Part shown: positions 7,166-38,207 of the stretch, in pieces
Numbering within the stretch: position 1 is the stretch's first letter
How the letters are laid out: every line of letters begins with the position of its first letter
Assembly (NCBI RefSeq): GCF_018861025.1
Contig: NZ_JAHKQH010000038.1
Location: 1 to 45,465 of the forward strand
Source: Psychrosphaera sp. B3R10
Lineage (GTDB): Bacteria > Pseudomonadota > Gammaproteobacteria > Enterobacterales > Alteromonadaceae
Reading direction: 5' to 3'
DNA: 45,465 nucleotides
Program-made: the position numbers and the translations under genes
Notes under the pieces: generated by a model
Told to the model about the DNA's origin: nothing
Database searches by the model: none
Seen by the model: the letters and a program-made list of their open reading frames with translations, nothing else

Positions 7166-10100
7166 ATGAATTTATTTACTAAATATCGCTTCGTATTATT
7201 TGTTTTAGCGATTATTTCTTCACACATTAATGCAGCACGTTTACATATTGATTTAAACCAAAACTGGAAATTTTCTTTATCCGGCAGTGACGCTGCAACA
7301 TCACCAACGTTTGACGATAGGGATTGGAAGACAGTAAATGTGCCACACGACTGGGCATTTAATAAAGGGATCAGTATTGACGGCCAACAAGGTGACAAAG
7401 GCGGTTATTTTGACGGTGGTTTAGGTTGGTATCGTCAATCATTCGACGTCAGTAAATCCTGGTTAGATAAGCGTGTTGTGATTGATTTCGAAGGCGTTTA
7501 CATGAACAGTGAAGTTTGGATAAACGGTCACTATCTTGGTAAAAAAGCCTATGGCTATATTTCGTTTCAATACGACATTGGTCAATATTTAACAGCGGGC
7601 ACTAACCATATTGCCGTGCGCGTTGACAACTTGAAAGAGCCTTCTGCTCGTTGGTATCACCCAGCAGGTATCTATGCACCTGTCTCCCTAACAGTAATGG
7701 ATGCTCAATCTTATGTTCAAAATAATGGTGTCTATGTCACCACGTCGTTAAACAAAGATAAGTCAGCACAAGCGACGGTAAAACTGGAATACGCTAATAC
7801 CCGAAATGAATCTTTGTATGTTGAGTCTAAAATTGTCGACCAAACGGGCAAGCCAGTATTAGTTGAGAATAATCCATTACCAGCTTGTACTTCAGAAAAC
7901 TGTTCAACAACGTCACAGTTAACTTTATATAAACCAAAGTTATGGGACACAGAAACGCCTAATCTTTATACCTTGAGTACAACCATTCGTAGCTCCGATA
8001 AAGTTTATGACACGGTGGATACTCGATTTGGTATTCGCACGATTAAATGGGATACAAAAACCGGGTTTTGGTTAAACGACAAGGTGACCAAACTTAAAGG
8101 CGTGAGTGAGCATTGGGAAGGTGGCCCGGTAGGTGGCGCTTGGACTAAGCCATTGTTGCGTTGGAAGTTAGCATTATTTAAAGAAATGGGCGTCAATGCA
8201 ATCCGTACAGCCCACAATCCATATCCACCAATTTTTTATGAATTGTGTGATGAAATGGGCATCTTGGTCATGGATGAAGTGTTCGATGGCTGGAGTAAAA
8301 AGGCACCGTTTGACTATGGTCAGCAGGCGTTTAAAGACGATTGGAAAACAGATCTAACAGAATGGGTTAGTCGTAACAGAAACCACCCATCGATTATCCT
8401 TTACAGCGTAGGTAATGAAACTCGAGGCGATGAAATTGCTGAGAAATTAGTAAACGAAATGCACAAACTCGATCCAACTCGCCCTGTGACTTCAGGCCAC
8501 AGTGCGTCAAGTAAAATGGACGTGTTTGGAGTAAACGGCGGCAGTGAAAAAACACAATTTTTCGAAAATTCACGACCGGATCTACCTTTTATTGCGACTG
8601 AAGCACCACACACTTGGCAAACACGCGGATATTACCGCTCTCAAACGTGGTTACGAGACGGCAATCATTCGAAACGACAAGGCATTTTCCCGTTACCTGA
8701 TTTAGCCGAGGAAGAAATCTTCACTTACGAATGGGCAGATCCAAGTACATGGAGAAACCCAAAGCAGCATTTTAATTCGTCATATGACAACGCAACGGTA
8801 AGAATATCAGCCCGTAAAAACTGGGAGTTAATGCGCGATTTACCTTGGTTTAGCGGACATTTCCGTTGGACTGGTTTTGACTATTATGGTGAAGCGGGTT
8901 ATGTCCACGGTGGCTGGCCGTTCCGTTTATTTATGGGTGGCGCGTTAGACGTAGCCGGATTTGAAAAAGATCTGTTCTATTTCTACAAGAGCCAATGGAC
9001 CGACGAACCTTTTGTACATTTATTACCGCATTGGACTCATCCGCGAATGGCAGCAGCAACGAAGATCCCTGTTTGGGCTTATTCTAACTGTGAAGAAGTT
9101 GAGCTATTTATTAACGGAAAATCGTTAGGTCGTGATTCGTTAGGAACTAAATGGGACGAAATGCAAGCCGAGTGGATGGTACCTTGGCAAGAAGGCACAC
9201 TAAGCGCTAATTGTTTAGTTGATGGTCAAGTCAAAGCAAGCACTCAGCAGGTTACAGCAAACGCCCCAAGCCGTTTACAACTAACACTTGAAGACCGCTT
9301 TGTTCAACCTGAAACAGGCAGCGCAATAATCACCGCTGAACTGCTAGATGAAAAAGGAACCTTCTATCCATATGGCGAAAACAAGGTTTACTTCCATTTA
9401 GTGGGAGACGCCGAGATCCGTTCACTAGAAAACGGTGATCCAGTTGATACGTCAAAAAATGTCGGCGTAGATAATCGTAAAGCTTTTATGGGAGCGACTC
9501 GAGCGTTTATTGATATTGATAACGGTGCAACTAATGTGTCTATGATCAGTGCCGCGATTATCGGAGATAAGCAGTTATATTCATCAGACTTAATTAACAT
9601 TGATGTGGCCACACTAAATATCAAAGGCAAGGCGGCTAAAGTTAGCATTGACGTGTTTTACACAACTGACGGTTCTATACCGTCAAAGCGCAGTCAAAAA
9701 TATTCAGGCGCATTTAAAGTAAAACCAAACACGTTAGTTCAAGCGGTTGTTTATATTGACGGTAAAGCATTATTTACGATGAAAGAAGCGTTTGCAGATG
9801 GTTCAGGTTTGTATTGGGGAAAAACGGGCTCCAGCGCACAAGTCGAAAATTCACGTGCGATGCCTGCTAAAGATGCATTACTTAAAGGAGCTGCAAAACG
9901 TGCTACTCACGTTGATTTTCAAGCCAGTGAAGGTTCTATTACTTGGTATCAGGAAAACGACGGCGAATACGGTATGAATGAATTGGCCATCGAATACGCA
10001 TCAAATGATAAAGAAAGCGACCGCGAGATGTTACTTATCGTAAATGGTAAAAAGATTGCGAAGCTGAAATTTCCTAAAACAGGGAAATGGCAAGGCAAGT

Positions 10101-10222
10101 GGGCAACAGTCACGGTTGACGCACCACTTGGTGCCGGAGCTAATTACATTGAATTAAAAACAACGGGTAGCAGTGGCCCTAATATTAAGTCACTAAGTAT
10201 TACGGCAAAGGATGACGAATAA
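7166..10222 (+). CDS. GH2 beta-galactosidase-like enzyme with C-terminal accessory domains
   Basis: A 1018-residue secreted GH2 enzyme with signal peptide MNLFTKYRFV...INAA and AAAGGG 9 nt before the ATG. In order: sugar-binding jelly roll (about 26-180), Ig-like domain (about 185-290), TIM barrel (about 295-600) with acid/base Glu418 in SVGNET and nucleophile Glu479 in FIATEAP, a DUF4982-like Ig domain (WAYSNCEEVELFINGKSLG), a further beta domain, a chitobiase-C-like region (VFYTTDGSIPSKRSQ, near 828) and a terminal carbohydrate-binding-like module (about 912-1015). The family removes terminal beta-linked sugars, here most likely beta-D-galactose from galactan oligosaccharides. Its terminal module is homologous to the next gene product. 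Distinct from the LacZ-type GH2 at 26767. Confidence 0.88.
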   Translation: MNLFTKYRFVLFVLAIISSHINAARLHIDLNQNWKFSLSGSDAATSPTFDDRDWKTVNVPHDWAFNKGISIDGQQGDKGGYFDGGLGWYRQSFDVSKSWLDKRVVIDFEGVYMNSEVWINGHYLGKKAYGYISFQYDIGQYLTAGTNHIAVRVDNLKEPSARWYHPAGIYAPVSLTVMDAQSYVQNNGVYVTTSLNKDKSAQATVKLEYANTRNESLYVESKIVDQTGKPVLVENNPLPACTSENCSTTSQLTLYKPKLWDTETPNLYTLSTTIRSSDKVYDTVDTRFGIRTIKWDTKTGFWLNDKVTKLKGVSEHWEGGPVGGAWTKPLLRWKLALFKEMGVNAIRTAHNPYPPIFYELCDEMGILVMDEVFDGWSKKAPFDYGQQAFKDDWKTDLTEWVSRNRNHPSIILYSVGNETRGDEIAEKLVNEMHKLDPTRPVTSGHSASSKMDVFGVNGGSEKTQFFENSRPDLPFIATEAPHTWQTRGYYRSQTWLRDGNHSKRQGIFPLPDLAEEEIFTYEWADPSTWRNPKQHFNSSYDNATVRISARKNWELMRDLPWFSGHFRWTGFDYYGEAGYVHGGWPFRLFMGGALDVAGFEKDLFYFYKSQWTDEPFVHLLPHWTHPRMAAATKIPVWAYSNCEEVELFINGKSLGRDSLGTKWDEMQAEWMVPWQEGTLSANCLVDGQVKASTQQVTANAPSRLQLTLEDRFVQPETGSAIITAELLDEKGTFYPYGENKVYFHLVGDAEIRSLENGDPVDTSKNVGVDNRKAFMGATRAFIDIDNGATNVSMISAAIIGDKQLYSSDLINIDVATLNIKGKAAKVSIDVFYTTDGSIPSKRSQKYSGAFKVKPNTLVQAVVYIDGKALFTMKEAFADGSGLYWGKTGSSAQVENSRAMPAKDALLKGAAKRATHVDFQASEGSITWYQENDGEYGMNELAIEYASNDKESDREMLLIVNGKKIAKLKFPKTGKWQGKWATVTVDAPLGAGANYIELKTTGSSGPNIKSLSITAKDDE

Positions 10223-10300
10223 ATGGATTTTGCAGACTACTCAAACGTTGTTTTGAGTAAGCCTTTAAATTACAAGTCTTTGGCTCACAAGCTCAGGTTG

Positions 10301-10786
10301 ATGTCGAAATTGGTTAAAGTTTTTGTAATAACCATGATTGTTATCTTTGCTACAGGTTGCAAGTTAACTGACGATGCAAAGGGACCTAAGAGCGACAATG
10401 GCGAAATTGCTACCGTTGCTCCCGGTCAATTTAAACTGTTGGCAAATAACGCAGATGTTGTGGGGGCGCTCAAAACAGCTCAACATGTGGACTTTAAAGG
10501 AAGAGAAGGCTCAGTAACATGGAAGTTAAAAAATGTTGGTGAAACTGGTCACTATGACTTGAGGTTCTTATACGCTTTAAATGACCCCAAAAAACAACGA
10601 AATATGGATCTTTACATCAATGATGAAATTGTAACCTTAGTTCGTTTTTCAAATACGGGCAGTTGGCATTACAAATGGGAAAAAGCCCAGGTAATCGTTA
10701 AGGTGAATAGTGGCATTAATACCATTAAATTAGTGAGTAAAGGAAATAGTGCACCTAACCTAAAAGCGCTAATTATTTCGGGCTGA
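10301..10786 (+). CDS. Small lipoprotein made of one carbohydrate-binding-like module
   Basis: A 161-residue lipoprotein (FATGC, Cys20) when started at the ATG at 10301. The first ATG at 10223 directly abuts the GH2 stop and adds 26 residues that would bury the signal peptide, so it is less likely. Residues about 60-161 form a beta-sandwich module with HVDF, REGSVTW, a DLYIND turn and SAPNLKAL. The same pattern (HVDF, SEGSITW, LLIVNGK, SGPNIKSL) ends the upstream GH2 protein, so the two are homologous. It resembles CBM6/CBM35-type modules. The likely role is surface or periplasmic glycan binding beside the GH2 enzyme; no catalytic residues can be assigned. Confidence 0.72.
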   Translation: MSKLVKVFVITMIVIFATGCKLTDDAKGPKSDNGEIATVAPGQFKLLANNADVVGALKTAQHVDFKGREGSVTWKLKNVGETGHYDLRFLYALNDPKKQRNMDLYINDEIVTLVRFSNTGSWHYKWEKAQVIVKVNSGINTIKLVSKGNSAPNLKALIISG

Positions 10787-11166: not shown

Positions 11167-12993
11167 ATGAATATCAAGCAAGGCGTTTTAAAAAAGGGAC
11201 TTTCTAACATTGCCGTTATTTTAATTGGCGCGCTAAGTTTTTATAGTCTGCATGCGCAATCAGCTATTGAATTGCATGCGGGTGAGTTAAAGCAAAAAAT
11301 TGATATTGTCGGTGGAGACATGGAACGCTCGGCAAATTTTTTGTTACAAGCTAGCAACCCAGACGAAATCATCGATTGGTATTTTTCAGACATGGTGATG
11401 CCTTATATGAGGGTGGTGTTTGATAAAAAACAAGAATTGATTGAAGGCGCTCCCAATTTTGGTTTTTACAGCAAACAAATTGAAGTGATGCAAAAAATTA
11501 AAGCGGTGAATCCAGACGTAAAATTTTGGGCGACATTAAAAACCGACTATGACGGTTACGGCAAAAATAACAATATGCCGGACTGGATTTATACTGGGAA
11601 TGGTTATAACGGTGGGAGCTATAATTCAACACTTTTTAAAGCCGACAAATATGCGGGCTTTCTCGCCGACTACTTAAAACTTATGCATGAAAGTGGCGTT
11701 AAAATTGACATTATATCGGTATCTAAAGAATGGATGCAGGTAATGCCGGCACGGAATGAATACAACACGATTAATCAGTTGAAACAGCTGTTAGCAACGG
11801 AAGCCTACAAAGGTGTACCGGTTCCTGAATTTAATGGCCCTGCGGCGTGGGGGGTAAAACAAGCCAAAAATTTTGTGGTGGATGTCAGCAATAATGGCTA
11901 TCAGGCAAATTACTCTGGCTTTTCGGCACACACTTATGACAAGCCGACAGAAGCGAATTGGTTGGATTTAATTACTGCCGCGTCTGCGATTAATAAACCG
12001 GTATATAATGAAGAATCCAATGCCGCTGGTGGCGGGCCTTTGTGGGGCGAAGAACCTACGATAGGTGGAGTCATCAATATCTATACGGGTAAAACAGAAT
12101 CATATCGGGCTGGATTACGGGGCGAGTTGTTCTTTGAAATTTGGTCAAGAGGGATCACCAAAGAAACGCGCGCCGTTTATTTTACCAAAGGACAAAAGGG
12201 CAATCGCCTCCGTGGTTATTGGTTAATAAAAGCGTTTATTGATGGTGTGTATAACAAACATTATATCGCTCACACAACACCGCAAGAATTGTCTGACATT
12301 AAAGTGATGGCGTTTTCTGACGATGAATATATCACCGCTTATGTGATTAATGCGTCTACAACAAATGCGTTTACCAACTTGCCAATTACGCTTAATGATA
12401 AAGTTATTACCAGTAATACAATAGTCGCTCAAACCTGGAGCGAGGACACACCTAAAATGGGCGTTGTTAGTGGTATAACAAAAACCTCAAGTAATTCTTT
12501 TTCAGTAAATGTCGCTCCTTCGAGTTTAGTCATCTATAAGTTCAGAATTGGTGGTAATGCGACAATTAATCTGTCGTTAAATCAAAACGAAATCACGGCA
12601 ACAGAGCAGTCGTTTAACTTAGATGTCACGGCCAATCAACCGTGGGTCATTACTCAACTCCCTAACTGGCTAACAGTAGATCAACAAAGTGGCGATGCAT
12701 CAACAACCATTACATTTAACGCGATTGAAAATATGTCGAATGTTGAACGTGCCGCCACTATTTATGTTAACGACGTGCCTTTGCTTGTGGTTCAATCCGG
12801 CGGGTATGGCCAAGGTGAGGGGGATGTGAATCTAGACGGTGTTGTTAATGCTGCGGATCTTGAATCTTTTAGAGCGGTTTATGGCCTGAGTAATACCGAC
12901 AAAAACTACCTGCTAAGTGCTGATCTCGATGTTGATGGCAAGATCACAAAGCGGGATTACAGCCAACTCTACGCAATTTTCTTACAACAATAA
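11167..12993 (+). CDS. GH86-like endo-beta-galactanase with BACON and dockerin domains
   Basis: A 608-residue exported protein with a signal peptide ending near residue 33 and no lipobox. The catalytic barrel (about 34-380) starts with the GGDMERS motif typical of GH86 beta-agarases/porphyranases. Candidate catalytic Glu are E188 (SVSKEWM) and E282/E283 (VYNEES), with the barrel continuing through AGLRGELFFEIWSRG. A small beta domain precedes a BACON-like module (about 463-546, with WVITQLPNWLTV). Residues about 550-606 form a type I dockerin: two calcium loops, DVNLDGVVNAADL (553-565) and DLDVDGKITKRDY (586-598), each followed by a helix. GH86 enzymes cut internal beta-1,4 bonds in agar or porphyran. 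The next gene encodes a cohesin-like protein, so this enzyme is probably docked to it at the surface. Confidence 0.83.
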   Translation: MNIKQGVLKKGLSNIAVILIGALSFYSLHAQSAIELHAGELKQKIDIVGGDMERSANFLLQASNPDEIIDWYFSDMVMPYMRVVFDKKQELIEGAPNFGFYSKQIEVMQKIKAVNPDVKFWATLKTDYDGYGKNNNMPDWIYTGNGYNGGSYNSTLFKADKYAGFLADYLKLMHESGVKIDIISVSKEWMQVMPARNEYNTINQLKQLLATEAYKGVPVPEFNGPAAWGVKQAKNFVVDVSNNGYQANYSGFSAHTYDKPTEANWLDLITAASAINKPVYNEESNAAGGGPLWGEEPTIGGVINIYTGKTESYRAGLRGELFFEIWSRGITKETRAVYFTKGQKGNRLRGYWLIKAFIDGVYNKHYIAHTTPQELSDIKVMAFSDDEYITAYVINASTTNAFTNLPITLNDKVITSNTIVAQTWSEDTPKMGVVSGITKTSSNSFSVNVAPSSLVIYKFRIGGNATINLSLNQNEITATEQSFNLDVTANQPWVITQLPNWLTVDQQSGDASTTITFNAIENMSNVERAATIYVNDVPLLVVQSGGYGQGEGDVNLDGVVNAADLESFRAVYGLSNTDKNYLLSADLDVDGKITKRDYSQLYAIFLQQ

Positions 12994-13062
12994 TTAAAAA
13001 GTTGTCGCTAGGTGAGAATACATAATGGCGGCGCTTTTAAAATTAAAAAAAAGGTTGTCTTC

Positions 13063-13653
13063 ATGACACATACAACACTCGTAGGTAGCCGTCTAAAGCA
13101 GGCTTGTTGTCGCTTTATCATAATCTGCATGAGCTTAATACCTGCTGCCCAAGCTAGCGTAACATTGGATGTATTATCGGATGATATACAGGTCGGAGAT
13201 TACTTTTTAGTAAATGTTATTTTAGAAAATACTGAACATAAATCCATTTCTTCATTTGCATTTGATTATAACGACGCTGCATTGCAGCAACTTGAATTTA
13301 CTGGGGATGAGTTGACCGAACCGAGATTTTCTCGTATTGAAGAATACGCTACGGTAGATAACTTAGTTATCAGCCCTGAGCGAGTTAATGAGCAAAATAC
13401 CCTGCTGGCGACACTGAAATTTTATGCCCATAGCACAGGAAAGGTTACATTATCTTTGCTTGGTAACGACGGTGAGTTGTCTGGTGTATTTTTTACTGAT
13501 CTTACTTATGAATCAATTGACGCCAATGTCAGCTTCGTTGTGAATGACAAAGTTGAATCTTTACCTGATACCGACAACAGCTCCGGCGGATCATTAACTG
13601 GCTTGCTGATATTGTGCCTATTTGGTGTACGTATAGTGCGTGCGCGTTATTGA
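13063..13653 (+). CDS. Cohesin-domain protein with GlyGly-CTERM anchor
   Basis: A 196-residue protein from the ATG at 13063, preceded by AAAAGG; an upstream in-frame GTG at 13012 adds 17 charged residues before the signal peptide and is unlikely. The signal peptide ends near AAQA (31). Residues about 32-165 fit a cohesin beta-sandwich: DIQVGDYFLVNVILEN, ISSFAFDYNDAALQQLEF, then TLLATLKFYAHSTG. The C-terminus is a GlyGly-CTERM tail: SGGSLTG, a hydrophobic stretch, then RARY. In known systems this tail is cut by rhombosortase after type II secretion and the protein is attached to the outer surface. It starts 69 bp after the dockerin-bearing GH86, so it is the obvious partner. The binding itself is inferred. 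Confidence 0.8.
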   Translation: MTHTTLVGSRLKQACCRFIIICMSLIPAAQASVTLDVLSDDIQVGDYFLVNVILENTEHKSISSFAFDYNDAALQQLEFTGDELTEPRFSRIEEYATVDNLVISPERVNEQNTLLATLKFYAHSTGKVTLSLLGNDGELSGVFFTDLTYESIDANVSFVVNDKVESLPDTDNSSGGSLTGLLILCLFGVRIVRARY

Positions 13654-14027: not shown

Positions 14028-16613
14028 TTATTGGGATATTTCTATTACAAATTCGGCTGTGCCAGGGCAACCGTTTGCGGGCGTATAGGTCGCCGTATAA
14101 GTCCCTGCTTGGTCTAACTGTAGATTTGATATTTGGATCTGGCGTTCTGAGCTACTAAACCCTTTTGGTCCAGACCAAGACCAAGTGCCACTGTGGGGTT
14201 GTGGCCCTAAATCAATCGTATCGCCTACTTTGACCGTTACCGAGGTGACTTTTTGCCAAGTCCCTTCGTTTACCCTTATATAAGGCGTTACAGTCGATGG
14301 CGTGCATTCTCCTTCAACAAGCTTTGTTTCAAAAACTGCGCTGCTACTGCATCCTAATGGCGTAGTTAACGTCGCCGTGTATTGTCCTTGCTGTGCTTCA
14401 CTTGCATCAGCGAATGACAATTGACGAACTTCTATGGCTTTAAAGTCATTAGGACCAGTCCACTGCCAACGACCAACATCTGGTGACGTTGGGCCAATTT
14501 GAAAGGTATCACCGTTTCTATATTCAAGTTCGTAGGTCGATTGCCACTTTCCTGCAATGAACATTTTAGGTTCAATTGTTGGCGTGTCACTACAGGCTAT
14601 ATTCACATCAAACTCTAGTTTGGCACGGCACCCAGCGTCGCTCGTGAAGTGAGCGGTATATTGCCCAGCGTGTTTTAATTTCGCCGTTGCAATTGCTAAG
14701 TAATCCTGTGTTGCATCAATGTAACCCGGTCCTGTCCAATGCCAGTCCCCCGATGTTTGAGAAAGTGGAGTTATATTCAGTTTATCCCCTGTATTTAAAT
14801 AGATGCTTGTTTGGCTGTCGACCCGGCTTTCTTGGTTTATTTGATACTCAAAACTGAGTTCAGGATCGACTTTACAATCTACAGCCAATTCAGTAGTGAT
14901 TGCGCTAGTATTGCCATCGCTGTCACTAAAAGTTGCCTGATAATAACCCGCCATCTCAGGCGTAATATTAGACAGTTGAATATGAGCTTGATCGGCGCTG
15001 AAGATATTTGGACCATTCCAATGCCATGTGCCCGTTGCAGTCGATTTGGGTTCAAACTCAACGGAATCCCCCGCTTCAATAACAGCGACCGCTTGGTTAT
15101 TCATCTCAGTAAATTCACTGTCGTCAGTTTTGACAAACTGAGTAAGAGGGTATTGCGGCTTAATGATAAATAGGTTGAGGCTGTTCAGGTCGATATCTGC
15201 CGTGAATTTACCGTCTTGTTGTAGCTCGATTGTCGATGCTAGGCCTTCAATCGCTGTAGATTCTTGCCAAACCCTGTGTTGAACCGTCATACCTGTTTTC
15301 AAATTGAGTTGGTCAATAACAAATTCAACTTCGTCTTGAGCGTCGTTTTGGTTGTTGATAACCCATAGGGCCAAACTATCACCTTTTATAAACGCCATCG
15401 TGCTTAAGGAATCAAGGTTGGTGGTTAACGTAGAAACATACTTACTGTCGACAGCATTGTTTGCAAAATGTTTCATCAGGTAATAAGAGCGCATTCTTCG
15501 GCCGTCGGTGCCTTTGTTAAAAAAGATCGGTTTTGCAAAATATTTGTTCGTTTGGATCTCATTATAACCACGAGGCCATAATTCAAAAATGGCTTCGCCT
15601 TGCAGGCCCGCGCTATACATCTCGGTTTTTGCCGCATAGGTGCCTAGTGCATAGTTAAAATCAGATTCATATATTGTCTGTCCACCACCGCCATGACCTG
15701 ATTCTTCGTTATAGGCAAATTTTCCAGCGTCGTTGGCGGCTTGTATAAAATCACCCCAACTTTTTGTTTCCCCTGACCAGTAATTATGTGAACTGTACCC
15801 TGCAACATATTGGTTAATACCTTTTGCTTGGTAGTTACCAATGAGTTTAATGCCATTGCTTAACGACCAAGTACCAGCATCGATTATGAGTGGCATGGCA
15901 ATATTTCTAGCGGTTAAGGCATCCTGCAACGTCTCTATCGCCACTTTTGCACGATCAACGGTAATCACCCCTACATATTCTTTTGATGTTGCTATATAGC
16001 TTACTGGCACGCCAGATTGCGACATATATTCAACATAATCGGCGAGAAAAAGGCCATACTTCACAGCGTCAAATGAACGGCTTCCGGTATTTTCTGAATC
16101 TAGGTAGGCATAATCGTAAATCCAAGTTGGTAGATTATTCCGATTCCCCTGGCTATAGCCGTGGTAATCTGACTCCAGTGTGGCAAAAAACTTTATATTG
16201 GGGTTTTCCAATTTTATCAATTGCATTGCTTTGACGGCATTATCGTAAATTGAAAAATCTTTAACGCCCTCAGTCATTTCTTGGTGTTTATCGTAAGCGA
16301 CACGCCACGTATCAAATTTTATGTCTTTTGCGACCCAACGAATAACTTCTTGTTGATTGTCGACTTGTCCGAAGTTTCTATGACTGCGCTCCATGTCACC
16401 TCCCATCATAGAAATGGTTTGATTGATATTGGTGACATCCACCAAAATCCTTTTGGTTTCGCTTGTGCCGCCATTCTCTGAGCCGCCACCGGTATTAGAT
16501 CCTCCGGTCTCGGTATTGTTTTGTTCATTTTGTTTTGTTGATGAATCTTCTCCGCCGCAGGATATTAAAAATAATATCAAAAGCATCCCTGTTAGTTTTT
16601 GTAATAGGTTCAT
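14028..16613 (-). CDS. GH86-like endo-beta-galactanase lipoprotein with four Ig-like modules
   Basis: An 861-residue lipoprotein (FLISC, Cys19) followed by a Gly/Ser/Asn/Glu linker (about 20-55). The catalytic region (about 55-480) parallels the 608-residue GH86 protein: GGDMERS at 71-77, YDKHQEM, DYHGYS, candidate catalytic E212 (TSKEYV) and E303/E304 (YNEES), and LQGEAIFELWPRG. The C-terminal 370 residues are four homologous Ig-like modules of about 90 residues, each with a G-x-W-x-W-x-GP core and a GxYxA strand; the last three also have a GC near the end. They probably extend the enzyme from the membrane or bind glycan. AAGG lies 7 nt before the ATG, next to a hexanucleotide repeat. It is anchored by lipid, in contrast to the dockerin-bearing paralogue. 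Confidence 0.84.
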   Translation of the reverse strand: MNLLQKLTGMLLILFLISCGGEDSSTKQNEQNNTETGGSNTGGGSENGGTSETKRILVDVTNINQTISMMGGDMERSHRNFGQVDNQQEVIRWVAKDIKFDTWRVAYDKHQEMTEGVKDFSIYDNAVKAMQLIKLENPNIKFFATLESDYHGYSQGNRNNLPTWIYDYAYLDSENTGSRSFDAVKYGLFLADYVEYMSQSGVPVSYIATSKEYVGVITVDRAKVAIETLQDALTARNIAMPLIIDAGTWSLSNGIKLIGNYQAKGINQYVAGYSSHNYWSGETKSWGDFIQAANDAGKFAYNEESGHGGGGQTIYESDFNYALGTYAAKTEMYSAGLQGEAIFELWPRGYNEIQTNKYFAKPIFFNKGTDGRRMRSYYLMKHFANNAVDSKYVSTLTTNLDSLSTMAFIKGDSLALWVINNQNDAQDEVEFVIDQLNLKTGMTVQHRVWQESTAIEGLASTIELQQDGKFTADIDLNSLNLFIIKPQYPLTQFVKTDDSEFTEMNNQAVAVIEAGDSVEFEPKSTATGTWHWNGPNIFSADQAHIQLSNITPEMAGYYQATFSDSDGNTSAITTELAVDCKVDPELSFEYQINQESRVDSQTSIYLNTGDKLNITPLSQTSGDWHWTGPGYIDATQDYLAIATAKLKHAGQYTAHFTSDAGCRAKLEFDVNIACSDTPTIEPKMFIAGKWQSTYELEYRNGDTFQIGPTSPDVGRWQWTGPNDFKAIEVRQLSFADASEAQQGQYTATLTTPLGCSSSAVFETKLVEGECTPSTVTPYIRVNEGTWQKVTSVTVKVGDTIDLGPQPHSGTWSWSGPKGFSSSERQIQISNLQLDQAGTYTATYTPANGCPGTAEFVIEISQ

Positions 16614-31549: not shown

Positions 31550-31558
31550 GTGTCTGTT

Positions 31559-32149
31559 TTGACGAGAAGCAGCAGTAGAGAAAGTGGTTGGACAAAACTA
31601 ACCAGCGTATTTATCGAGAACAACCTGTTTCTGCGCAATTATCTAAAACGATTTTTGCACAGTGAACAAGATATTGAGGATGTTGTTCAAGAGGTGTATA
31701 TCAAAGCAGCTAAAGCGGAAAGTGAACGCACAGAAGAGCTGGAACACCCAAAAGCGTTTTTATTTACTATTGCTAAGAACTTAGCGATTAATGAGTTAAA
31801 CCATAAGTCGCATAAACGGACAAGTTATATACAAGATTGCATGGATCACATTAATGAAGATGAAGCACATAGTGCGGAGGCTGAAAATGTCGCCATGGAG
31901 TCATTAGGAATTCATTGTGAAGCAATATCAAATTTACCTGAAAAGGGGCGGTTGGTGTATTTATTAAAAAGGGTGCATGGCTTGAAGCACCAAGAAATCG
32001 CTGATCGATTGCAGATTTCACTCAGCAGTGTTGAAAAACATTTGAGTATGGCATTGGTTTATTGCAGTGAGTATATTAGAAAACAGGACGTCGATACTCC
32101 GATTAGAGATCGAAAAAGTCCATTAAAGCAAGTTCGAGGAAATGAATAA
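31559..32149 (+). CDS. ECF sigma factor, FecI-like
   Basis: A 196-residue extracytoplasmic-function sigma factor. Region 2 covers about residues 15-75 (NYLKRFLHSEQDIEDVVQEVYIKA, then HPKAFLFTIAKNLAINEL). Region 4 is at about 125-175 with helix-turn-helix GLKHQEIADRLQISLSSVEKHL. The TTG at 31559 is preferred because GGGGGAG (31544-31550) lies 8 nt upstream; a GTG at 31550 overlaps that Shine-Dalgarno sequence. Its stop overlaps the FecR ATG by one base (TAATG), so the two are coupled. In this type of system the sigma factor is held inactive by FecR until an outer-membrane receptor signals. The target is probably the downstream STN receptor, and perhaps more of this island. Confidence 0.9.
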   Translation: MTRSSSRESGWTKLTSVFIENNLFLRNYLKRFLHSEQDIEDVVQEVYIKAAKAESERTEELEHPKAFLFTIAKNLAINELNHKSHKRTSYIQDCMDHINEDEAHSAEAENVAMESLGIHCEAISNLPEKGRLVYLLKRVHGLKHQEIADRLQISLSSVEKHLSMALVYCSEYIRKQDVDTPIRDRKSPLKQVRGNE

Positions 32150-33249
32150 TGGTTAAGAAAATCGTTGAATTTCCTGATCAAAATGTGATTGAGCAGGAAG
32201 CCGCCGAATGGTTGGTCGCGTTGGATCGCGATGAAAAACCAAGCGCAAAATTGTTGGCTGACTTAACTGACTGGATGGCGCGTAGTAAAGCACACCGCGG
32301 CACGTTAATTAAGCTAAATCAATTTATGTCTGATACGTCGCTAACTGATCTAATGGTTCCATTGGAGCATACGGCGCACCAGACAGCGTCTAGTCCTGTG
32401 GTAGAAAAAACTTCTTGGTTTGACAAGTTGTTTGCTTGGCCTGTAATGGGTGGCGCATTGGCGAGTTTTGTTGGGGTCATGATGATAGTCTTTATGACAA
32501 CTCAAACCCCAACTGAGCAGCACCCATATGCAGACACTAATGGCACTTTTATATCTGCTTTAGGTCAACAGCGTAACTTTACCTTGGCCGACGGTTCGGT
32601 TATTACGTTAAATTCTAATAGTAAAGTTAATGTCAGCTTTGATGAAAGCACGCGAGATATCCAATTGGTACGTGGTCAAGCACACTTTGACGTTGCTCAT
32701 GACAAGCAGATCCCGTTTCGAGTATATGGTGCTCAAGGTCGTGTTGAAGCGGTTGGTACAGCATTTACTGTAAAAGTAAAAGAACAATCGTTAGACGTGT
32801 TAGTCACCGAAGGTACAGTCGCAGTTGCTTCAACAGGTAACCCACAATCGTCAGATTTGATTGAAAATATTGAACCAAATTTGGTTGAACTGGGATTATT
32901 AACAGCCGGTAAACGAGTTGTAGTAAATACAGTCGCAGAGATTGCTCAGTCATTAAGCGCTGTTAAAGACGCACTTAATGTTGATATTGCCGACATGTCT
33001 CGTATGCAAGCATGGCGCGACGGTATGTTAGTCTTTTCTGGTGAAACGCTTGAATATGCCGTCGATGAAATCCGCAACCTAACCGGTTATAAGATTAAGA
33101 TCGTGGACAGTGAATTAAAATCAATCAAAGTTGCTGGTAGTTTCCAAACTGACGATATTGATTCTATTTTCGCTTCATTGGAGTCTAACTTCCCAATCAG
33201 GGTTGCAAAAGTTGGATATCAACAAATAGAGATCATGGCGGCCGACTAA
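32149..33249 (+). CDS. FecR-type transmembrane anti-sigma factor
   Basis: A 366-residue inner-membrane regulator. The N-terminal cytoplasmic part (about 1-85) has the DUF4880-type sigma-binding sequence AAEWLVALDRDE ... LTDWMARSKAHRGTL. One membrane helix lies near 101-120 (GALASFVGVMMIVFM). The periplasmic FecR domain (about 135-230) contains FTLADGSVITLNSNSKV, VRGQAHFDVAH and GTAFTVKV. The C-terminal 80 residues (LVFSGETLEYAVDEI ... LTGYKIKIVD) form an STN / DUF4974-like domain that should meet the receptor signalling domain. It overlaps the sigma factor stop by one base. It passes the receptor signal to the sigma factor across the inner membrane. Confidence 0.93.
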   Translation: MVKKIVEFPDQNVIEQEAAEWLVALDRDEKPSAKLLADLTDWMARSKAHRGTLIKLNQFMSDTSLTDLMVPLEHTAHQTASSPVVEKTSWFDKLFAWPVMGGALASFVGVMMIVFMTTQTPTEQHPYADTNGTFISALGQQRNFTLADGSVITLNSNSKVNVSFDESTRDIQLVRGQAHFDVAHDKQIPFRVYGAQGRVEAVGTAFTVKVKEQSLDVLVTEGTVAVASTGNPQSSDLIENIEPNLVELGLLTAGKRVVVNTVAEIAQSLSAVKDALNVDIADMSRMQAWRDGMLVFSGETLEYAVDEIRNLTGYKIKIVDSELKSIKVAGSFQTDDIDSIFASLESNFPIRVAKVGYQQIEIMAAD

Positions 33250-33269
33250 TACGCCATTACCGAAGAATG

Positions 33270-33313
33270 GAAGTCACCCTAATATTTATGTTAGTCGTGA
33301 CTTCTTTTTTTTT
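33270..33313 (+). terminator. Terminator or attenuator between fecR-like and receptor genes
   Basis: Stem GAAGTCAC / GTGACTTC (33270-33277 with 33297-33304), a 19-nt loop with a small inner stem, then nine T (33305-33313). It lies inside the sigma-FecR-receptor cassette, so the receptor gene is either read through or has its own promoter within the next 55 bp. Confidence 0.9.
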
Positions 33314-33368
33314 GGCTTTTGGGATATTGTGTGCAACTGCTTTGATCAATGTGTAGTTCAGATTTATT

Positions 33369-36300
33369 TTGACTTTTTCAATTCAAACCCAAGCTATTTT
33401 TCTAGTCTGCGCTGTTCTATACAGCCAAGTTAGCGTTGCTGAAGACGTTCAACCTAAATCATCTATTAATATTCCCGCTTCAAATTTAGTCGATGCCTTA
33501 AATAGCTTTGCGAAACAAACGAATCGCGCATTAATTTACCCTTATCATTTAGCAAGCTCACTTTACGTCGACGGCCTCCAGGGCGAATTCAGCGCATCAC
33601 AAGCATTACAACAATTACTGAAAGACACCCCTCTAAAAGGAACCGTGCGGCCTAGTGGTGTCATCCAGATCACTAAGATTCAACCTGTAGTCGTTGAGGA
33701 AAAAGCGCCAGTGGTACTCAAAGGTGAAGTTGAGATTTCACCGGTAGTTGAGGAAATAGAAGTTATCGTCGTTGAAGGTAAAATGTTCGCGATGGACAAG
33801 TCGGCCAATTTTAAACGGTTTTCTGATTCTCAAACAGAGCAAATTAGCCAGTCTCAGATTAATCAAATCGCCAAAAGCAATGCCGCAGACGTCGTGCGAA
33901 ATGTGCCCAGCATATCAACCGATAAAATTTACGGTGGTGGAACCCATGTTTCTGTACGGGGGTTTGGAGCAGAATTTAATAACGTCCTTTATAATGGCCG
34001 TGTTATCGCGACGGAAAATCAAGGACGTGAGTTTAGTTTTGATGTGCTTTCCTCAGATGTTATCGAACGGGTCAATGTATATAAATCTCCGTCAACCGAC
34101 TTAATAGCCGGAAGTATTGGCGCCACGATTAACTTAGTCAGTCCCATGCCCGGTTCTCACTTAGGAACGTATTCTAAGTCAGCGGTAAAACTAGGTTACA
34201 GTGAACTTTCCGGTGAGTACTTTCCTGAAATATCCCAGTTATTTAGTTATAACAATGGTGACTACGGTGCGCTAATCTCCATTCAATACCACGAAAAAGA
34301 TTATCGGTTAGAGTCGGTCAACACAGACGGTTGGATCCCTGTCGATTTGTCTTACTTAGAAGGGCAGAATGATGACTATTCTCGTGTTTACGTGCCGAGG
34401 AATTATGATTTTCGTATAGATGAAGGTAAGGAATCGCGTATTGGAGGAAATGTCGTTTTACAGGCGAGCATTACCGATAAAACCCTTTTGACGGCAGACT
34501 TATTGTATTCAAAATATGAAGTCGATTCTCATATAAAGTCTTCAGGTAATTGGACTCATGTAAATCCAATTGGTGTTGAGTCAACGTTAGGCGAGTCGTT
34601 TCAAAGTGTTCAAGTAGATAATCACAATACGTTGCTAGGTTATCGATATAGAGAAGATGGGGACTTTGCAACCGACTTTGTTGAGCTCAATCGAAACCGA
34701 CCAACCTCTACTATCCAAATGGGGTTGAACCTTCAACATTTGTTGTCCGATGCGATAGAGTTAACGTTAGATACATCTTACTCAGCTGCCGAAAATAACA
34801 ATGGTGGTAAACAGCAATTTATTATCGCCGGCGTGCCATTTGCGAATCCGGTTTATCAATTTATCCCCGGTGCTAATTATGCCGAGCTAAGTTATGACCG
34901 TGAATTTGGTATCGAAGATATTCGAAGCCATGGCACTATATTTAATGGTGAAAATGTTAAAGATGAAATTTTTCAGACTCGTTTAGACTTACATTGGTTT
35001 CCAGACTTTAAATGGTTTAAACAGTTTGATATGGGAATATACCAATCGGCCAGAACCAAGCAAAGAGATGGCTTTCGTTCTCCAAATGGTTGGGAGTTTG
35101 CGGGTTATGTGTTTGACATACCGGACGAAATTTTTAGCCCTTTTAATGCGTCAGATTTCATTGATGGCGGCAACCCCACAGATTGGTATTCATTTGACGC
35201 TCAAGAGTACGTTGATTACCTATGGTCGGATGAACATATTCAAACGGAAATCATTGACAAAGATCACCCTTTAGCAGATTCGATTTGGGCACTAAAACAA
35301 GCAGGTGGTGTAGAACCAGTGCATTACCCTAGCAAATCTTGGCAGGTGGAAGAGCAGTTAATAGAAGGTTATGTCAGTGTCAAATTCCAAGGCGAATCTG
35401 CAATGGGAGACTGGAGCGGTAATCTTGGGGTTCGATTTGCCAATACAAAGGTTTTGTCAGAAGGAAATCAGCAGGCCATTAGAAGCATTGAAACAATTGA
35501 AGGGGATCCGACAAACTTAATTATGAGTTTTAGTTCTGCTAGTGACATCAGCGAAACTCATAGCTATTCAGAGGTTTTACCATCGTTTAATGTAAAACTG
35601 GCTCTATCTGAGCAAAATGTCGTGAGTTTAGGGTTGTCCAAAACGATGACAAGACCAACCCTAAGTGACTTATCAATTACACTTGGCAATTATATTTCAA
35701 GGGTCGGAGCAAGTATCGCATTTCAAGGTGATGCATACTTAGAGCCTACCTTGTCGAACAACATTGATATCAACTGGAACTATTACTGGGATGCCTATTC
35801 GGTATTTGAAATAGCTTACTTTTACAAAGACTTCTCCAATTATTTGTCGAGTAAGGCAGAGTATAGAACCCTACATGATTCGCAGTTTGGAGAATATCTT
35901 ATTATTTCTCCTACAAATATTGCGGATGAAACCGTCAGCGGTTGGGAGCTCAATGTCGTCAGTAAATTTCATATGTTACCTGGACTATTGCAGGGGCTCG
36001 GAGGTCGTTTTAGATATACAGATGTTGAAACCACTGAGCATTTACATGAGCAAAGTAATACGGCGATTCCGGCAATTGAAGGGGCTGCAGACTCTTACGT
36101 TGCGGCATTGTTTTACGATTTAGATAATATAAATTTTAATTTAAGCCTATTCCATCGAGACAGTTTTTTGCAGTCCCGCATCGGGTTGCTAGGCGACGTC
36201 GTTATGGTTGCAGCAAGAGATCAATTTGATTTTGGAATGAGTTACAAATATGGCAATATCAATGTGTCATTTGACATCTTAAACCTGACTAACGAGCCAG

Positions 36301-36389
36301 TACGTTCCTACTCTGTCTATGAAGAGCGCCTGATCAATTATATCAACAGTGGTAGTGATTATTCCCTCTCTATGAGTGTTGAGTTTTAA
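33369..36389 (+). CDS. TonB-dependent signal-transducing receptor with STN domain
   Basis: A 1006-residue outer-membrane receptor. An in-frame TAG at 33354 forces the start downstream of it, and TTG at 33369 is the only usable codon before the signal peptide (FLVCAVLYSQVSVA). No Shine-Dalgarno sequence is visible. Residues about 32-106 are an STN domain (INIPASNLVDALNSFAKQT, LQGEFSASQALQQLL), which contacts FecR. The plug has SDSQTEQISQSQINQIAKSN, VVRNVPSI, VRGFGAEFNNVLYNGR and YKSPSTDLIAGSIGATINL. The barrel follows and ends in LSMSVEF, a normal outer-membrane terminal Phe. With the two genes upstream it forms a cell-surface signalling system, probably sensing and importing a galactan oligosaccharide. 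Confidence 0.93.
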   Translation: MTFSIQTQAIFLVCAVLYSQVSVAEDVQPKSSINIPASNLVDALNSFAKQTNRALIYPYHLASSLYVDGLQGEFSASQALQQLLKDTPLKGTVRPSGVIQITKIQPVVVEEKAPVVLKGEVEISPVVEEIEVIVVEGKMFAMDKSANFKRFSDSQTEQISQSQINQIAKSNAADVVRNVPSISTDKIYGGGTHVSVRGFGAEFNNVLYNGRVIATENQGREFSFDVLSSDVIERVNVYKSPSTDLIAGSIGATINLVSPMPGSHLGTYSKSAVKLGYSELSGEYFPEISQLFSYNNGDYGALISIQYHEKDYRLESVNTDGWIPVDLSYLEGQNDDYSRVYVPRNYDFRIDEGKESRIGGNVVLQASITDKTLLTADLLYSKYEVDSHIKSSGNWTHVNPIGVESTLGESFQSVQVDNHNTLLGYRYREDGDFATDFVELNRNRPTSTIQMGLNLQHLLSDAIELTLDTSYSAAENNNGGKQQFIIAGVPFANPVYQFIPGANYAELSYDREFGIEDIRSHGTIFNGENVKDEIFQTRLDLHWFPDFKWFKQFDMGIYQSARTKQRDGFRSPNGWEFAGYVFDIPDEIFSPFNASDFIDGGNPTDWYSFDAQEYVDYLWSDEHIQTEIIDKDHPLADSIWALKQAGGVEPVHYPSKSWQVEEQLIEGYVSVKFQGESAMGDWSGNLGVRFANTKVLSEGNQQAIRSIETIEGDPTNLIMSFSSASDISETHSYSEVLPSFNVKLALSEQNVVSLGLSKTMTRPTLSDLSITLGNYISRVGASIAFQGDAYLEPTLSNNIDINWNYYWDAYSVFEIAYFYKDFSNYLSSKAEYRTLHDSQFGEYLIISPTNIADETVSGWELNVVSKFHMLPGLLQGLGGRFRYTDVETTEHLHEQSNTAIPAIEGAADSYVAALFYDLDNINFNLSLFHRDSFLQSRIGLLGDVVMVAARDQFDFGMSYKYGNINVSFDILNLTNEPVRSYSVYEERLINYINSGSDYSLSMSVEF

Positions 36390-36635: not shown

Positions 36636-38207
36636 ATGAAAGCAATAAAAATAATAACAATAAACTTAATGATGAGTGCGTTAGTAAGTGCTTACGGATA
36701 TGCGGCTGATACTCATTTGGAGATATTTCCAGAACAACAAAAACAGCAAGTTAAATTTGGTGCGGACATTAAATTAACCATAAAAAATGTTGCCGAGGGG
36801 AACACGTCGAAAGTTATGGATAGATTTATTGAAATGGGAATGGATATGGTTCGTTTGCCATTTTTTCCCATTCGTGATGTCACTGACCCATTCTATGACA
36901 AAGTGTTTAAGGTATCTGACATTGCCGAAGATAAAGGACTCATTTTGTTTGTTAGTGTTGCAAATGGCGATGGTGATAAAAATAACTGGCTACACGGGGC
37001 GCATAAGTTTTCTGACAAATTGATCTGTCAAAGTAATTGCCCTAAAACATTTTATAATATCAATTTAGCGGCCTATGCAGAGTATATGGATGCGTTTCTT
37101 GATCAAATGGCATTGCACGATGCTAAAGTCACGTTTGTCGGGCCATTTAACGAAGACAGAGGTGCGGTAAGCGATTATCAGCAAATCTGGCAACACATGC
37201 GCAATAGTGACTTTAAACGCATTGGACCGGAGCTCTGGGGCCTTGGAAATTCGATTATTGATACACCAAAGTTACTTGATCTAGTTGATGTTGTTGGCTC
37301 ACATTTTTATGATGATTCGGCCAATAAAGTCGCTATTCATGACAGCCAGTGGGCTGCATTAACCGAAGCGGCAAACGGCAAGGAAGTATGGTTCACCGAA
37401 GCCACTCGTTTTGAGGCCTCTAACAATGATATGACTAACCTTCGCACGGGTTTAGAGCATATTATCCCGTCTATTCGTGGTGGTGCTGAGCGGGTGATCT
37501 TCTATCAAGCGGCTAATCGGTTTGTTTGGTACAACGGTGGTGCACGAGCTTATCGTTTTAGTGGTGTTAAGCAATTCACTAAAAATGCCATTGGAAATGT
37601 AGTGGATTCAACCTCGGATGATTATGCCGTTAAAACGGTCAGTTTTTATGAGTCCGGTGTTCTGAAAGTAAATATCACAAATGGCGAATCAACGCCTAAA
37701 ATTACCTCGGTTAAATTAAAGGGGAACTTTGCCGCGCTAGGAAGCGGTTCACAGATGTTGTGGACAAACGATGTCGAAGCTGGTCTTACGGATATTGCCT
37801 TTGATGATTCAAGTTGTTGGACGATGACTGTGCCGGCAAATTCTTATCTGCAATTAAGTGTGCCTGTGGTTGCCTTATCTGCGTCAACTATCGAAGAATG
37901 TAGCCATATTGGTCTACCGCAAGATAGTGACTTGCCAGACTTTGACCAAGACGGCATTGCCGATTTTATTGATGAAGATGACGACAACGATTCCGTATTG
38001 GACGAATTAGACGAATTTCCATTTGATGCAACCCGCAGTGGTACTCAAGTCGAAGAAACAGAAGAAACAGAAGAAACAGAAGAAACCGAAGAAACTGTAA
38101 GCGAGGAAGTTGAAGCACCGCTAACAGAACAAAAAAGTAGCGGCGGCAGCTTCTCTGGAACTTGGGCCTTTCTAATGTTGCTGCTGGTTAGACGTTTCAT
38201 CAAATAA
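36636..38207 (+). CDS. Clan GH-A-like putative glycosidase with Ca-binding repeat and GlyGly-CTERM tail
   Basis: A 523-residue exported protein with signal peptide ending near GYAA (24); AGAGG lies just upstream of the ATG. Residues about 28-330 look like a TIM barrel (FIEMGMDMVRLPFF, GLILFVSVANGDGD) with candidate acid/base Glu173 (VGPFNEDRG) and nucleophile Glu255 (VWFTEATR), plus VGSHFYDD and RVIFYQAANRFVWYNGG. A beta domain follows to about 412. Residues about 434-464 are a thrombospondin-3-like calcium repeat (DFDQDGIADFIDEDDDND). An EET tandem linker (473-487) leads to a GlyGly-CTERM tail: SSGGSFSGTW, a hydrophobic segment and RRFIK. The fold resembles clan GH-A (GH30/GH39/GH5), but I cannot place the family. 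It is close to the 415-residue protein at 38501. The tail predicts type II secretion and surface attachment. Confidence 0.7.
   Translation: MKAIKIITINLMMSALVSAYGYAADTHLEIFPEQQKQQVKFGADIKLTIKNVAEGNTSKVMDRFIEMGMDMVRLPFFPIRDVTDPFYDKVFKVSDIAEDKGLILFVSVANGDGDKNNWLHGAHKFSDKLICQSNCPKTFYNINLAAYAEYMDAFLDQMALHDAKVTFVGPFNEDRGAVSDYQQIWQHMRNSDFKRIGPELWGLGNSIIDTPKLLDLVDVVGSHFYDDSANKVAIHDSQWAALTEAANGKEVWFTEATRFEASNNDMTNLRTGLEHIIPSIRGGAERVIFYQAANRFVWYNGGARAYRFSGVKQFTKNAIGNVVDSTSDDYAVKTVSFYESGVLKVNITNGESTPKITSVKLKGNFAALGSGSQMLWTNDVEAGLTDIAFDDSSCWTMTVPANSYLQLSVPVVALSASTIEECSHIGLPQDSDLPDFDQDGIADFIDEDDDNDSVLDELDEFPFDATRSGTQVEETEETEETEETEETVSEEVEAPLTEQKSSGGSFSGTWAFLMLLLVRRFIK
38052..38096 (+). repeat. In-frame 9-bp tandem repeat (GAAGAAACA)5
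   Basis: Five copies of GAAGAAACN (38052-38096) encode Glu-Glu-Thr repeats in the linker before the GlyGly-CTERM tail. Copy-number change would alter linker length without a frameshift. Confidence 0.93.

Follow-up and report, generated by a model that had tools for sequence, protein, structure and literature searches.

The locus studied here raises the question of how a secreted glycoside hydrolase that ends in a dockerin could be retained on a Gram-negative cell. It lies in a contig of Psychrosphaera sp. B3R10 (NZ_JAHKQH010000038.1), of which the whole stretch of 45,465 nucleotides (nt) was analysed and is referred to below as the window. Two same-strand open reading frames (ORFs), 11167-12993 (608 amino acids, aa) and 13012-13653, are separated by a gap of 18 nt. 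The original prediction had taken them for a two-gene unit in which a GH86 galactanase with a two-loop type I dockerin is tethered by a small cohesin protein with a GlyGly-CTERM anchor. The two-gene unit proved to be real, and the finding is broader than first noted: the module is common to many related bacteria, where it is combined with different enzymes. Based on sequence comparison, we propose a two-gene 'split anchor', in which a one-cohesin adaptor would bear the sorting tail in trans for the dockerin-bearing enzyme encoded next to it (probability of roughly 70%). The features of the locus are as follows.

11167..12993, + strand: secreted glycoside hydrolase with a C-terminal dockerin, 608 aa (signal peptide, GH30-like catalytic region, BACON domain, dockerin)
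11167..11256, + strand: signal peptide of the enzyme, assigned by eye
11257..12552, + strand: catalytic region of the enzyme; a profile of six relatives matches GH30-type xylanases in PDB (9.3e-7)
12643..12774, + strand: BACON domain (Pfam PF13004, 31.8 bits, cut-off 25)
12820..12990, + strand: type I dockerin at the very C-terminus, formed by a pair of Ca-loop repeats (Pfam PF00404, Dockerin_1)
13063..13653, + strand: putative single-cohesin anchor protein; the ORF opens at GTG 13012, ATG 13063 is preferred
13063..13155, + strand: signal peptide of the cohesin protein, assigned by eye
13156..13545, + strand: cohesin-like domain of about 130 residues, from the family profile; paralogue at C18 37% identical
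13579..13650, + strand: GlyGly-CTERM-like tail, SSGGS / hydrophobic stretch / RARY (TIGR03501, 13.6 bits, below the cut-off of 15.5)

The ATG at 13063 was preferred as the start codon because the signal peptide begins there. The dockerin at the end of the enzyme was confirmed by Pfam PF00404 (aa 552-601, 31.3 bits, cut-off 22.9), and its two Ca-loops begin at 12823. The predicted composition of the neighbouring protein held in part: a signal peptide and an SSGGS tail (SSGGSLTGLLILCLFGVRIVRARY) were recognised by eye, the tail scored below the cut-off of the GlyGly-CTERM model, and the identity of the domain between them is partly confirmed, as it was recognised as a cohesin only through the family profile. 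A core profile of 50 relatives, with the signal peptide and tail removed, gave 28 matches in PDB at E<=10, and 15 of these were named cellulosomal scaffoldin, anchoring or cohesin proteins (3l8q, 2.3e-5; 4uyp, 1.2e-4; 5lxv, 1.4e-4). The rest comprised four NagJ chains, which we take to be a cohesin-like module, two entries named endoglucanase and seven other proteins. Pfam Cohesin matched 13 of the 39 family members described below at E<=0.1 (best 1.7e-5).

A second pair is present in the same genome, in which three dockerin genes scored over the cut-off (the window gene and two further ones, labelled C18 and C45 here). The C18 enzyme-dockerin gene (L010:9370-11673) encodes 767 aa, with a catalytic domain 41% identical to that of the window enzyme. 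It is followed after 70 nt by a cohesin gene whose product is 37% identical to the window cohesin over 161 aa (E 3e-37) and reached 15.7 bits against Pfam PF00963 (gathering cut-off 24.1). The tail of this paralogue (VPEPSAFAFLICSLVLLVGKRR) has the PEP-CTERM layout. Each of the two anchor proteins found in this genome contains one cohesin domain (profile A3), and PF00963 gave two weak matches only over the whole genome.

The machinery for both kinds of tail is encoded as well. The genome contains the predicted rhombosortase (TIGR03902, 155.8 bits, cut-off 84), an exosortase (228 bits, cut-off 25.7) and, as the sole component of the type II secretion system (T2SS) examined, the secretin GspD (570 bits, cut-off 351). 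Four GlyGly-CTERM and 12 PEP-CTERM matches were over the cut-off, and both systems appear to be in use elsewhere in this genome. Taken by sequence, an enzyme-borne dockerin, a single tailed cohesin next door, a rhombosortase and a T2SS secretin partly support the tethering suggested by the original prediction.

Recurrence of the gene pair in related genomes

Relatives of the cohesin were sought with sequence profiles. A two-row profile gave matches in 5/394 genomes of the order, and a seven-row core profile in 4/398 genomes of the phylum and 35/395 genomes of the same family (40 matches in the latter). After a 589-aa non-cohesin ORF (L051, genome G775) was left out, 39 small family cohesins remained, each consisting, by eye, of a signal peptide, a cohesin-like domain and a hydrophobic tail. 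The adjacency first noted at a single locus recurred: a dockerin-bearing gene was directly adjacent on the same strand in 35 of the 39, lying at most 150 nt upstream in 32 cases and at most 150 nt downstream in two. One further cohesin, in genome G348, lies 90 nt after a GH30-like homologue of the enzyme (L061, 7847-11320, - strand) whose dockerin is internal (aa 279-332, 59.8 bits). This dockerin precedes the catalytic domain, and the cohesin beside the enzyme has an SSGAFS tail.

In the class, 39/360 genomes gave 51 matches; 30 loci were examined and 22 judged, with L069 (the source genome), L086, L089, L093, L094, L095 and L098 (partial or not small tailed proteins) and L091 (no core match) left out of the count. 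A same-strand dockerin pair was found at 19 of the 22, at 13 with a gap of up to 159 nt and at six as seen in longer stretches. Outside the 19 were L090, located at a contig start, and L076 and L085, without a dockerin within about 6 kb. Among the 22, two ORFs (L082 and L084) did not end in a clean tail, and the matches at L080 and L082 ran through stop codons. A three-row cohesin alignment confirmed one of 201 pattern matches, in Aliiglaciecola lipolytica E3, where the two genes of the pair stand in the opposite order and the tail is of the PEP type. No relative of the cohesin was found in viral contigs and plasmids, the phage collection being outside this search.

Given the homologous pair at C18 and 33 additional same-strand pairs in the family, chance adjacency of the two genes is untenable. 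As a control, 28 loci (85 kb) were scanned around further positions in this genome that score against the GlyGly-CTERM or PEP-CTERM models (above the cut-off in 16 cases), and none contained a dockerin or cohesin match. Chance was rejected on the recurrent pairs and the empty control loci together. An independent check with Pfam recognised Dockerin_1 at E<=0.01 in 29/40 neighbour ends, and a cysteine-bearing dockerin variant accounts for several of the ends without such a match. The variant, with conserved cysteines (CDxDxDGxID...DARxCVLQCT), was seen near tailed cohesins at L040, L044, L049, L056, L059, L071, L074, L097 and others.

The cargo varies widely and includes GH30-like enzymes, ExeM/NucH nucleases, M9 collagenase, CBM35/CBM6-bearing proteins, DUF11 proteins and IgGFc-binding-type proteins. 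NF033681 (ExeM/NucH) scored over the cut-off in nine of ten neighbours scanned, nine of the ten having been chosen beforehand as nuclease-like. In NCBIfam, ExeM proteins whose GlyGly tail is on the nuclease itself have a separate model (ExeM-GG, NF033680), and the ExeM of S. oneidensis is described as bearing its own GlyGly tail (PMC6085458). Since these forms stand against those at the loci studied here, the nuclease family exists either with the tail on the enzyme or with a dockerin in its place and the tail on the adjacent gene.

The tail varies too. Pfam PEP-CTERM matched 27/39 family cohesins at E<=0.1, and a GlyGly-like tail was seen by eye in two only, that of the window and that of G348 (SSGAFS). 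Judged by sequence layout, the PEP-CTERM-like tail is the usual form of the module and the GlyGly tail a rare one. An exosortase was found in 32 of the 34 other match genomes. Of the two genomes without a match, G775 is the one with the false cohesin match, and the assembly of G1026 is 92% complete. For a vault/VWA-type family, it is already described that the tail may be GlyGly, PEP-CTERM or LPXTG depending on the species (Haft and Varghese 2011, PMC3237569).

Alternative explanations and the proposed anchoring route

Several observations on the domain, its neighbourhood and the tails weigh against the split anchor, and the co-variation of dockerin and cohesin, which favours it, has limits of its own. 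As a single sequence, the window cohesin matched nothing in Pfam (E<=10, PF00963 included), NCBIfam or PDB. The Ig (immunoglobulin)-like adhesin 9ncf (5.8e-5) ranked second in the PDB search with the core profile. The AlphaFold2 model of the cohesin alone, from a two-row alignment whose shallowness limits it, reached a predicted local distance difference test (pLDDT) score of 60; in a Foldseek search with this weak model, the best 50 of 1380 rows (E<=10) were mostly Ig-like, with a V-set Ig first (E>=0.011) and no cohesin among them. A fused dockerin-linker-cohesin chain, a makeshift for the complex that was likewise modelled from a shallow alignment, gave a model too weak to weigh either way (pLDDT of 43.6, predicted template modelling score of 0.39). 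All but the last of these results would suit another Ig-like beta-sandwich, for example a carbohydrate- or surface-binding adaptor, with the dockerin serving something else. We consider this explanation very unlikely: cohesin entries dominate the matches of the trimmed profile, in which antibody light chains drop to E 1.2, and the constant partner of the small protein is a dockerin gene, attached to quite different catalytic classes.

As regards the neighbourhood, four of the 39 family cohesins had no intact same-strand dockerin neighbour. These exceptions included a convergent dockerin gene at L048 and a one-loop dockerin remnant at L057, and no dockerin was found within 12.4 kb at L053 and L054. 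The dockerin hidden Markov models (HMMs) behind the adjacency counts were built partly from the same family neighbours.

Neither sorting tail of the two paralogues reached its model. The 46-residue tail piece of the window cohesin scored 13.6 bits against TIGR03501 (GlyGly-CTERM, cut-off 15.5), the full-length 196-aa protein had no NCBIfam match at E<=10, and the tail was absent from the matches (E<=10) of a six-frame genome search with the GlyGly-CTERM model. The C18 tail piece scored 13.9 bits against the PEP-CTERM model TIGR02595 (cut-off 16) and was not among the matches of the genome-wide PEP-CTERM search. The TIGR03501 cut-off is not decisive, because two other SSGGS tails in this genome also fall below it (14.7 and 13.9 bits) and the authors of the GlyGly-CTERM family report that the HMM misses some trusted examples (PMC3237569). 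Another GlyGly-like tail, attached to an enzyme itself, was observed in the window at 36636-38207 (+ strand), where a GH59-like protein ends in KSSGGS / transmembrane stretch / RRFIK (TIGR03501, 13.9 bits, below the cut-off).

The dockerin and cohesin sequences co-vary. On a 47-row cohesin tree, the dockerin type changed five times, compared to at least eight times in 500 label shuffles, and the distances of the two domains were correlated (Mantel r of 0.67 over 47 pairs and of 0.70 over the 34 standard ones, with 0/2000 shuffles as high). However, 25 of the 44 inner branches of the tree were weak, and the agreement could reflect joint inheritance of the two-gene unit, not binding.

This co-variation also bears on whether the pairs are exclusive. 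The third dockerin enzyme of the genome, C45 (L011, 6285-8972, - strand, 895 aa), belongs to the same GH30-like family and is a candidate cargo in trans. No cohesin match was found in the 14-kb stretch around it; thus, one of three dockerin genes, counted in this genome alone, lacks a cohesin neighbour. The second dockerin loop reads SRLDYSQLY in C45, resembling both TKRDYSQLY of the window and SRLDYGQLY of C18. Both facts fit a shared pool, in which the three dockerin enzymes would use the two cohesins (with GlyGly and PEP tails) non-exclusively and the window cohesin would be a general dock. The tight adjacency at 35/39 loci and the Mantel r of 0.70 suggest cognate pairs instead, joint inheritance being a further explanation of the latter, and we regard the pool as a doubtful possibility.

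In the split anchor as proposed, Sec would export the enzyme, which has a C-terminal dockerin and no membrane anchor of its own, and the neighbouring protein, which combines a single cohesin with a sorting tail at its C-terminus, would likewise be exported. Rhombosortase would cleave the tail, and the cohesin would become lipid-linked and then surface-exposed via the T2SS, as for VesB. The dockerin would plug into the cohesin in a calcium-dependent manner, so that the enzyme would be kept on the cell. Binding of the pair, its calcium dependence, tail processing, surface location and one-to-one specificity are all predictions of this scheme. VesB of V. cholerae is cut by rhombosortase at its GlyGly motif, receives a glycerophosphoethanolamine moiety and is delivered to the surface by the T2SS (PMC6219818). 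By analogy, we infer that the window cohesin takes this route with the enzyme docked to it. The tailed cohesin might instead be an inner-membrane, periplasmic staging post for T2SS export, from which the enzyme would leave alone. ExeM of S. oneidensis, with its direct GlyGly tail, is reported to be mostly inner-membrane associated and largely rhombosortase-independent (PMC6085458), in line with release, whereas the same GlyGly/rhombosortase/T2SS route retains VesB at the surface (PMC6219818); release of the enzyme is regarded as unlikely.

The pair at this locus is part of a widespread gammaproteobacterial module in which the cargo, the dockerin/cohesin pair and the tail would all be exchanged, most copies having a PEP-CTERM-like tail for exosortase. 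We consider it rather likely that this represents a general 'trans-anchoring', in which the sorting signal has moved to a one-cohesin adaptor, any dockerin cargo is displayed, and the anchor chemistry can be swapped without touching the enzyme. In this genome, the two chemistries coexist, each borne by one of a pair of paralogous adaptors whose enzymes are paralogues too, which would amount to a natural orthogonal display system in Gram-negative bacteria. If true, this would join cellulosome-type docking with rhombosortase/exosortase sorting, fields kept apart in the literature searched, and explain the role of isolated cohesins and dockerins in many Gram-negatives. It predicts, for dozens of loci, that cargo retention is lost without the cohesin gene. 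It would also offer small, possibly orthogonal cohesin/dockerin pairs with a native Gram-negative surface-display scaffold, and would help to explain how polysaccharide enzymes, nucleases and collagenases are retained by such cells, as opposed to being lost as public goods.

Comparison with known systems

The proposed arrangement resembles a cellulosome in the dockerin on the enzyme, the cell-bound cohesin and the putative calcium-dependent plug. It differs in having no repeated-cohesin scaffoldin, one cohesin per anchor, a Gram-negative host and varied cargo, and the anchor would be a rhombosortase/exosortase-type tail instead of the SLH domains or sortase by which cellulosomes are anchored. 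A classical cellulosome was rejected, as no multi-cohesin scaffoldin was found in this genome with the profiles used. Cohesin and dockerin modules outside cellulosomes were reportedly described by Peer et al. in 2009. Cohesin/dockerin complexes can bind cells via SLH anchors or sortase lipid linkage (PMC9012536). Like the pair studied here, the non-cellulosomal modules of anaerobic methanotrophic (ANME) archaea (PMC9012536), of partner sulfate-reducing bacteria (SRB; PMC10553843) and of the 'planctosome' of Planctomycetes (PMC6461901) are proposed to keep proteins attached to the surface of the cell. However, those of ANME archaea include scaffoldin-like proteins with up to five cohesins and S-layer/dockerin fusions (PMC9012536), and the proposed anchor of the 'planctosome' is a lamin-tail domain (PMC6461901). 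Two adjacent genes that are conserved as a unit and include a tail for rhombosortase or exosortase are not described in the available passages of these three texts (PMC9012536, PMC10553843, PMC6461901).

The window cohesin shares the SSGGS / transmembrane / basic tail layout with GlyGly-CTERM proteins, and rhombosortase and a T2SS secretin are present. In the accounts of that system available to us the tail sits on the functional protein (PMC3237569, PMC6219818), whereas here a docking partner of the functional protein bears it, and the two tail types occur on paralogues in one genome. The same likeness and difference apply to PEP-CTERM/exosortase sorting, whose tail layout is found in the C18 paralogue and most family cohesins, on a docking protein and not on the functional one. 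Similarly, the nuclease neighbours match NF033681 (ExeM/NucH) over the cut-off; compared to ExeM-GG (NF033680), a dockerin replaces their C-terminal tail, which lies on the next gene.

In the available text of Haft and Varghese 2011 (PMC3237569), the words 'cohesin' and 'dockerin' occur 0 times each. The open-access PMC literature contained no paper that joins cohesin, dockerin and PEP-CTERM, PEP-CTERM and dockerin, or rhombosortase and dockerin, and a mention in Peer et al. 2009 or Haft et al. 2012 is possible. Exosortase and dockerin occurred together there in an archaeal review only, which treats the two separately in the portions seen. Listings under wider terms in PMC, judged by title, contained no title on such a system.

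The enzyme and other genes of the window

The catalytic region of the window enzyme is best called GH30-like. A profile of six catalytic domains, with invariant Glu at positions 158 and 253 (numbering of the first sequence), gave 11 matches in PDB at E<=1, the best being the glucuronoxylanase XynC (9.3e-7), with most alignments short (40-165 positions). Seven of the 11 were named xylanases, xylan-degrading or GH30 enzymes, and four were named 'carbohydrate binding family 6', presumably GH30 xylanases. The GH86 label had to be rejected: GH86 entries exist in both Pfam and PDB, and no GH86/porphyranase match appeared at E<=1 in either, xylanases being matched instead. Instead of a special one-slot 'galactanosome', the pair represents one instance of a common module whose cargo varies and whose tail is usually PEP-CTERM-like. 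The 15 window ORFs scanned included GH97, two sulfatases, two GH2 enzymes, two TonB-receptor plugs and a GH59-like protein, a content that fits algal galactan use and is no proof of it.

At 14028-16613 (- strand), the window encodes a further protein homologous to the dockerin enzyme, with 32% identity in the catalytic domain, Ig-like repeats and, by eye, a lipoprotein signal (LISC). Because it has this signal and no dockerin match in Pfam, enzymes of a single catalytic family appear to be retained in several ways. Upstream of the pair, a protein of 187 aa encoded at 10223-10786 (+ strand) gave a CBM6-like match of 25.8 bits (cut-off 28.9). A weak CBM6 match of the same type lies at the C-terminus of the GH2 enzyme encoded just before it (7166-10222). 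Further downstream, at 31550-36389 (+ strand), small ORFs that appear by eye to be sigma-factor-like and FecR-like directly precede a TonB-dependent receptor, and the same gene order was observed at L062 (1524-6266), beside another cohesin pair.

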